A DNA stretch of 64,000 nt from Pengzhenrongella sicca. GTDB lineage: Bacteria; Actinomycetota; Actinomycetes; Actinomycetales; Cellulomonadaceae. The stretch lies in assembly GCF_017569225.1 (NCBI RefSeq), contig NZ_CP071868.1:2232001-2296000 (forward strand), in the 5' to 3' direction. This document shows, piece by piece, positions 3,638-4,016 of this stretch (its first letter is position 1; each line of letters begins with the position of its first letter). The position numbers and the translations under genes were made by a program. The notes beneath the pieces are model-generated. The model worked only from the letters and a program-made list of their open reading frames with translations, made no database searches and was not told where the DNA came from.

Positions 3638-3838
3638 TCAGCGCCGCTGGGTCGGAACGGCCTCGAGCAGCTCCCGGACTTCTTCTTCGAGGAAGCGGCG
3701 GTGCCCGCCGAGCGTCCTCACCGCGGTGATCTTGCCGCTGTTGGCCCAGCGGGTGACGGTCTTGGGGTCGACCCGGAACATCGTGGCCACCTCGCCCGGC
3801 GTGAGCAGCGGGGTGACGTTCAACGTGGACTTGTGCAT
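3638..3838 (-). CDS. bldC: BldC-type MerR-like DNA-binding regulator
   Basis: A 66-residue single-domain protein: TPGEVATMFRVDPKTVTRW is the winged helix-turn-helix, and TLGGHRRF is the wing that follows in BldC and excisionase-like MerR proteins. Length and sequence closely match Streptomyces BldC, a developmental regulator that binds direct repeats cooperatively. The ATG at 3838 is chosen over one at 3853 because GGAGG lies 8 nt upstream of it and overlaps the earlier ATG. A GEMM-type riboswitch occupies the 5' leader, so translation or transcription is likely governed by a cyclic dinucleotide. The gene ends at a strong hairpin. Its targets cannot be read from this window. Confidence 0.9.
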   Translation of the reverse strand: MHKSTLNVTPLLTPGEVATMFRVDPKTVTRWANSGKITAVRTLGGHRRFLEEEVRELLEAVPTQRR

Positions 3839-3854
3839 GGTGGCTTCCTCCATA

Positions 3855-3936
3855 GTCGTTCGGTAGCTGGGCTACCCCTTCTGGGCCCCTGGCTTTGCGT
3901 CCCCGCCTTCCGACGGGTTTGCTCTTGTCGCTGACC
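3855..3936 (-). ncRNA. GEMM-I-class cyclic-dinucleotide riboswitch in the bldC leader
   Basis: Read on the minus strand, the leader contains GAGCAAACC, a short helix closed by a GGAA (GNRA) tetraloop, then GGGACGCAAAGCC, and a final GGTAGC-CCA-GCTACC helix followed by GAACGAC. These are the hallmark blocks of the GEMM-I (cyclic-di-GMP-I) aptamer in the right order and spacing. By alignment to the Vibrio Vc2 aptamer, the position equal to G20 appears to be A, a change found in GEMM-Ib elements that prefer 3',3'-cGAMP, so the ligand may be c-di-GMP or cGAMP. The Shine-Dalgarno of bldC lies 4 nt past the last helix, which suggests translational control. Confidence 0.85.
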
Positions 3937-4016
3937 TGAAGCGCGGAATCCGACTTACCGGCGTCCGCGCCTTGCTCTACTCATCGGCGGCATACCGGAC
4001 ACCTTGAGGTCCAGTG

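Follow-up and report, generated by a model that had tools for sequence, protein, structure and literature searches.

In GEMM-I riboswitches (RF01051; Vc2), c-di-GMP is contacted by G20, A47 and C92. GEMM-I RNAs with the G20A change have been treated as cGAMP binders (PMC6274999, in excerpt), a G20A mutant was able to bind cGAMP as well (PMC7288161, in excerpt), and cGAMP was bound by 12 of the 17 GEMM-I RNAs of Geobacter sulfurreducens (PMC8835794, in excerpt). The Streptomyces regulator BldC directly activates a diguanylate cyclase gene (PMC6428758, in excerpt); it contacts DNA through K26, R30, W31, R47 and R48 and packs head to tail through E16, F21, R22, V23, T42, L43 and G44 (PMC5859096, in excerpt). 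Among the matches listed from the open-licence literature, we found none that treats riboswitch, bldC and c-di-GMP together, and none whose title or opening abstract lines describe a GEMM RNA before bldC.

Here we analyze a GEMM-I aptamer in front of a bldC gene in a 64,000-nucleotide stretch of the Pengzhenrongella sicca genome (the window, whose numbering is used throughout). The RNA resembles Vc2 in its sequence and structure model, junction motifs, A47, C92 and GNRA-type loop, and differs from it in having A rather than G at position 20, in its bldC target and in the short, highly conserved ends found in bldC-leader aptamers. It shares A20 with the 3',3'-cGAMP riboswitches of Geobacter (GEMM-Ib), whereas its P2 closing pair is G-C instead of C-G (PMC6274999, in excerpt). 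As in Streptomyces development under c-di-GMP and BldD, c-di-GMP would be coupled to a Bld-family regulator, here through an RNA sensor on the mRNA in a motility context and not through a nucleotide-bound repressor protein. The reading that we think reasonably probable is that of a flagella-linked, riboswitch-gated bldC paralogue in which c-di-GMP gates translation.

A GEMM-I aptamer directly precedes a bldC paralogue

From 4008 to 3638 the minus strand carries, in order, a promoter, a stem-loop, the GEMM-I aptamer, a Shine-Dalgarno sequence and a 66-codon ORF:

3981..4008, minus strand: putative FliA/sigma-28-type promoter, CTCA-N17-CCGATGA, located by a genome-wide pattern
3939..3972, minus strand: stem-loop between promoter and aptamer (fold z -2.86)
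3858..3932, minus strand: GEMM-I (c-di-GMP-I) riboswitch aptamer (RF01051 60.7 bits, RF03167 60.5 bits)
3923..3923, minus strand: A at the position of Vc2 G20, the letter before GCAAACC (alignment to RF03167, consensus G)
3896..3896, minus strand: A at position 47, the letter after GGGACGC (alignment to RF03167, consensus G)
3862..3876, minus strand: alternative hairpin, GGTAGC (3876-3871)-CCA-GCTACC (3867-3862), in an unconstrained fold and in a centroid structure
3847..3851, minus strand: Shine-Dalgarno GGAGG, 6 nt past the aptamer and 8 nt ahead of the ATG (from the sequence)
3638..3838, stop included, minus strand: bldC paralogue of 66 aa (NCBIfam NF033787 HTH_BldC, 99.9 bits, cut-off 77)

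An additional ATG at 3853 overlaps the Shine-Dalgarno, and 3838 is the likelier start of bldC.

A sequence-only reading of this DNA had proposed a GEMM-class riboswitch ahead of a bldC homologue, to be checked with Infernal and RF01051 on the minus strand. That search returned 60.7 bits against a cut-off of 35 (E 3.5e-11 in a search of one genome), the ORF behind the aptamer matches HTH_BldC at 99.9 bits, and GAGCAAACC, the GGAA-capped helix and GGGACGCAAAGCC are all present where the reading had placed them. The C aligned with C92 is also present (3863). The 4.4 Mb single-contig genome has four RF01051 matches (65.3, 60.7, 59.8 and 56.3 bits), the second being the window copy. Across 52 unique bldC leaders, P2 and P3 covary (columns 20-29 as GT, AT, GC and TA; columns 50-65 as AT, GT, GC and CG), the aptamer closing pairs are nearly invariant and hence carry little covariation information, and most aptamers have the short, highly conserved ends CAGCGA and CCGAACG. 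The model scores and the conservation across the family together exclude a chance origin of the window aptamer.

A cmscan of the whole window, from which one lower-scoring overlapping match from the same clan was omitted, also matched the aptamer to c-di-GMP-I-GGC (RF03167; 3932-3858, minus strand) at 60.5 bits, marginal to the gathering score of 59 (E 8.7e-12). We take the name of that family to mean G at positions 20 and 47, and we rejected membership of this variant because the window has A, not the consensus G, at both signature columns.

Two structural details of the sequence-only reading needed correction. It had taken GGTAGC/GCTACC as the closing helix, but in the RNAalifold consensus of the 52 unique bldC leaders these bases are the 3' side of P3 and the strand beyond, so that the hairpin is a competitor which would use up C92 and is incompatible with the folded aptamer. 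This hairpin appears in the minimum free energy structure computed from the aptamer start. For a slightly extended segment it appears in the centroid, the minimum free energy structure there being another fold. It was rejected as a functional switch because the other bldC leaders do not conserve its sequence. The reading also had the RNA end 4 nt before the Shine-Dalgarno, and the Rfam aptamer ends 6 nt before GGAGG. Two folding results count against our main reading: the thermodynamic fold of the window leader alone is unremarkable (z -1.07), and the Shine-Dalgarno and ATG can be buried by a local hairpin that does not need the aptamer. Elsewhere in the window lies an FMN riboswitch (RF00050; 45810-45949, plus strand; 88.9 bits).

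The best solved relatives of the window protein are 6ama_A (E 1.2e-25) and 6amk_A (E 1.8e-24), which we take to be BldC structures. As in Streptomyces BldC, the whole protein is a MerR-like wHTH, and the DNA-contact and head-to-tail residues named in PMC5859096 (in excerpt) are retained at the same numbers; these residues form invariant or almost invariant columns of the BldC alignment. Unlike Streptomyces BldC, the window protein has V40 for I40, a GEMM-I leader and a FliA-type promoter, and is a paralogue. The genome has three BldC paralogues, the window gene among them. One of the others (L003) is a second GEMM-bldC copy, with G20; the third (L279) is canonical-looking, and in its leader we saw no aptamer, none of the genome's four RF01051 matches being located there. 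Judged by these sequences, the window gene is a paralogue and not the genome's canonical-looking bldC.

Distribution of the GEMM-I and bldC arrangement

RF01051 matches were found in 50 of 150 family genomes (the window's own included), in 7 of 25 genera. Of the 150 matches listed, the true total being at least 150, our family counts cover 149, of which 34 were read as loci and 115 were fetched. The sequence-only reading had suggested searching related genomes for the same bldC leader, and it is there: bldC lies directly behind GEMM-I in 56 of the 149 family copies among the matches listed, in Cellulomonas and Actinotalea. The 150th listed match (G138:C31, L351) has G20 and no BldC frame within 200 bases behind it. 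At least one GEMM-bldC pair occurs in 47 of the 50 GEMM-bearing family genomes (own included, among the matches examined), and a 48th genome, G030, has a pair found through a genus search only. Of the 56 bldC rows among the matches listed, 55 have their start codon 11-20 nt past the aptamer; the remaining row (L125) has a BldC frame with no start by the rule used.

A pattern of aptamer plus BldC codons, run over GTDB genome contigs, returned 68 stretches, titled Cellulomonas or Actinotalea (59, one of them misspelt), actinobacterial MAGs (seven), Cellulosimicrobium cellulans (one) and a Proteobacteria MAG (one). The BldC of this last row (L221) is, by eye, identical to that of family genome G036 (L053). 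In the wider class, GEMM-I was found in 43 of 394 genomes (own included), and none of the 28 judged copies outside the family is followed by bldC (29 were fetched from 58 matches listed, and L248 was left out because its sequence ends 25 bases past the aptamer). The frames behind these outside copies, read as sequences with no family scan, include type IV pilin-like, response-regulator-like and secreted ones. GEMM-I directly before bldC is a family trait. As a separate observation, GEMM-I precedes type IV pilin-like frames in other actinobacterial lineages (L254, L257-L261, L263, L264 and others).

A different kind of gene also recurs behind these aptamers. About 49 of the 149 family copies among the matches listed (counted by eye) precede ORFs of about 43-66 aa that start 10-15 nt past the aptamer and in most cases have an RWAAxA...PxQ ending (for example L037, L044, L049, L098 and L102). 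A Pfam scan of two of these ORFs and an NCBIfam scan of one of the two gave no match. These ORFs appear to form a family of small proteins under riboswitch control. On the idea that they might be decayed BldC, an hhalign comparison of the small proteins with BldC gave a probability of 9 and E 0.0037. A C-terminal motif that seemed common to FliA and the small proteins was dropped as not general, having been seen in the window's sigma factor and a handful of relatives.

A flagellar-type promoter and a distinct leader lineage

The pattern CTCAN{17,18}CCGATRA had 15 matches genome-wide against none in a backwards control. Three of the four Flagellin_N genes are preceded by CTCA-N17-CCGATAA, with the same spacing as the window promoter, and the other genes behind pattern sites, by Pfam, encode a flagellar rod protein, FlbD, CheB, a response regulator, PilM, EAL, GGDEF and NIT-HAMP, in addition to the window bldC. 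A FliA/WhiG-like sigma factor gene lies just ahead of the flagellins, its best model being TIGR02479 at 165.6 bits, below the cut-off of 189.6. Counting against our main reading, three of the 15 sites (L306, L307 and L309, with no Pfam scan) face no recognised motility gene, and several sites fall inside long open frames, which are common in GC-rich DNA. The flagellin-derived spacing was used in place of another pattern, CTCA-N15/16-GCCGA, which was rejected on the scattered positions and genes of its matches (8 of 149 upstream regions; shuffled mean 0.43), and a TCAAG-initial pattern was non-discriminating (10 genome matches against 6 backwards). No consensus for an Actinoplanes FliA promoter was found in the open-licence literature.

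A looser form of this promoter marks a subset of the bldC leaders. T1 leaders often carry TTGCAC-N17-CATAGT, by eye an ordinary-looking promoter; T2 leaders, among them that of the window bldC, are those with a P3 of GGGG/CCC type. T2 was defined from the aptamer alone, and TCAA-N15..18-NCGAT was then sought within 110 bases. This motif is present in all eight T2 family rows (among the matches listed) and in two of three T2 GTDB rows, the third (L204) having a TAAA variant, and in none of 47 T1 family rows (among the matches listed) or 65 T1 GTDB rows; the two sets overlap, with GTDB rows L184 and L234 repeating family rows. For L143 the counted family row came from its neighbour aptamer, while its own aptamer has G20, BldC with a start codon likewise nearby, and the FliA-type motif. 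A loose FliA-like motif also occurs outside bldC leaders, ahead of L164 and L170. In a BldC tree of 88 rows, the eight T2 rows split from the 80 others with branch support 94/88, on few columns and with one very long branch (L152).

All nine T2 segments that were folded have a stem between promoter and aptamer (z -0.64 to -3.35). The stem sequences vary by eye (GAGGC/GCCUC, GAGGU/ACCUC, GAGUC/GACUC and GCGCGGA/UCCGCGC), and because they differ while the stem persists, the comparison suggests selection acting on the pairing. An automatic alignment of the 5' segments, including two non-T2 rows, yielded no consensus structure (energy 0), and the stem may serve only to bridge the start site to the aptamer. 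Two short elements also recur upstream: the octamer CGGGTGAA lies within 200 bases upstream of 65 of the 149 family aptamers among the matches listed, and TGTCC is found repeatedly within the promoter spacers of T1 and T2 leaders. A common regulator behind both is possible.

T2-like copies appear patchily by sequence, which counts against our main reading: in the four further genomes of the window's genus, 13 GEMM-I copies were read and none is T2-like, and neither is a fourteenth (L322). One genome has a tandem pair of full T2 promoter-stem-aptamer-bldC units (L143 and L158), their aptamers 436 bases apart. In L156 and L175 the T2 promoter, stem and aptamer are retained and the BldC frame has decayed; L152 retains the same elements with a much diverged BldC. 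These degenerate relatives, the patchiness of T2 and an A20 that is unique among the family bldC leaders (among the matches listed) would all fit a window aptamer that is a decaying relic with no regulatory role. We regard this as very improbable, as the window aptamer scores as high as other copies and has intact junction motifs, its BldC is intact with the contact residues kept, and its promoter and 5' stem are conserved.

The promoter and 5' stem that the window shares with other T2 leaders suggest a motility rather than a sporulation role. Cellulomonas is not known to sporulate. The sequence-only reading had proposed that the nucleotide may act directly on BldC through RNA, as a different route for c-di-GMP into a Bld-type network. 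The first part agrees with a GEMM-I RNA directly before a genuine BldC, a route unlike that through BldD; the network part, taken in its sporulation sense, found no support, because the canonical-looking bldC (L279) shows no aptamer and the window gene is a paralogue with a flagellar-type promoter.

Position 20 and the ligand

The sequence-only reading had noted an apparent A at position 20 and left the ligand open between c-di-GMP and cGAMP. The alignment confirms the A, at window 3923, which we take to be Vc2 position 20, with 3896 as position 47. Position 20 is G in 139, A in seven, C in two and T in one of the 149 family copies among the matches listed; position 47 is A in 148 of the same 149, the remaining row being unreadable by the pattern. 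A20 occurs in one of the 56 family bldC leaders among the matches listed, the window's own (L108 has C), and in one of the 68 GTDB aptamer-bldC stretches (L220, a MAG). Other T2 bldC leaders retain G20, as do the remaining three GEMM-I RNAs of the window's genome. The family A20 copies among the matches listed precede differing kinds of frame, including secreted-type and small ones, and A20 looks tolerated in the family rather than selected as a class.

The genome has 34 GGDEF matches. The Asp of GHxxGD marks ordinary diguanylate cyclases, and GHxxGS the Hypr type. The purine-selectivity residue is Asp in all 27 readable domains of the 34, with no GHxxGS among them. One CD-NTase is encoded (L294:991-1995, minus strand; SMODS 50.9 bits, PADLOC Cyclase 496.6 bits).

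This CD-NTase, the A20 itself and the binding of cGAMP by G20A GEMM-I RNAs (PMC6274999 and PMC7288161, both in excerpt) are what would speak for a window RNA that is a GEMM-Ib-like 3',3'-cGAMP switch or a dual-ligand switch, the three G20 RNAs of the genome reading another nucleotide. We consider this unlikely: A20 has a scattered occurrence (seven of 149 family copies, one of 56 family bldC leaders, both among the matches listed, and one of 68 GTDB stretches) and stands ahead of different kinds of frame, no Hypr-type GGDEF is present among the readable domains, and the window P2 starts with G-C where the cGAMP riboswitch has C15-G40 (PMC6274999, in excerpt). Quite unlikely too is the fuller scheme in which the flagella-type BldC is gated by 3',3'-cGAMP, or by both nucleotides, and the sister GEMM-bldC copy responds to c-di-GMP; if true, two BldC paralogues would answer through two promoters to two cyclic dinucleotides, one of them possibly an alarm nucleotide made by the CD-NTase of the same cell. 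The cGAMP hint of the sequence-only reading rests on this A, which is weak evidence because A20 is sporadic in the family, and all 27 readable GGDEF domains carry the Asp of ordinary diguanylate cyclases. On these comparisons, c-di-GMP is the favoured ligand.

If c-di-GMP is the ligand, A20 could set its affinity, so that c-di-GMP would be sensed only at high concentration and the FliA-type copy would answer later than the G20 copy L003. The aptamer is otherwise intact and its 60.7 bits exceed the 59.8 and 56.3 of two other copies, the other T2 bldC leaders retain G20, and the genome, with its 34 GGDEF matches, seems to support a rich c-di-GMP economy; the sporadic occurrence of A20 is equally compatible with drift, and we hold this proposal as tentative. 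For the main reading, A20 in place of the Vc2 G counts against.

Proposed mechanism

The aptamer, the BldC family, the form of the promoter and their conservation are read directly from the DNA, and on them the following model can be built. A FliA-type promoter would give an mRNA with the 5' stem-loop, the GEMM-I aptamer, six nucleotides, the Shine-Dalgarno and bldC. Binding of a cyclic dinucleotide, most likely c-di-GMP, would lock the aptamer junction and 3' strand, and the locked aptamer would set the accessibility of the adjacent ribosome site. Output of the BldC paralogue would then require a particular c-di-GMP state in addition to the flagellar sigma factor. We infer the ligand, the translational level, the ON direction, the dependence on FliA and gene targets in motility or surface life.

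With a start codon 11-20 nt past the aptamer there is no space for a terminator in between, and hence the simplest view is that bldC is controlled at translation initiation. Across the 52 unique leaders, predicted pairing of the Shine-Dalgarno averaged 0.505 when the leaders were native, 0.506 after their tails had been swapped in 8 rounds and 0.418 when the aptamers had been shuffled in 4 rounds. We rejected a tailored anti-Shine-Dalgarno platform, since pairing is equal in native and tail-swapped leaders. The modest excess over shuffled aptamers hints at a block in the apo state, and the unfolded aptamer sequence is predicted to have a general tendency to pair with the Shine-Dalgarno, with no tailored partner. 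Together with the EAL frame behind another GEMM-I copy of the genome (L004), this tendency weakly favours an ON switch, which we judge slightly likelier than an OFF switch.

In the opposite direction, c-di-GMP would pack the aptamer against the Shine-Dalgarno and block the ribosome, and BldC would be made in motile cells with low c-di-GMP. This has something to recommend it, with the aptamer ending just 6 nt before the Shine-Dalgarno and a flagellar-type promoter that suggests a need in the motile state. The EAL frame fits feedback through an ON switch, and the aptamer raises predicted Shine-Dalgarno pairing above that of shuffled aptamers; both objections are weak, and the OFF switch is a possibility that we doubt without dismissing.

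Significance

In the reading of a flagella-linked bldC paralogue whose translation is gated by c-di-GMP, BldC would gain a defined input signal from the conserved RNA sensor that precedes its gene in dozens of genomes of Cellulomonas and Actinotalea. Through the FliA-type copy, BldC would be linked to flagella, and the sensor of that copy may link swimming to gene control. If true, a Bld-type regulator would be coupled to cyclic dinucleotides through RNA in a lineage beyond Streptomyces.
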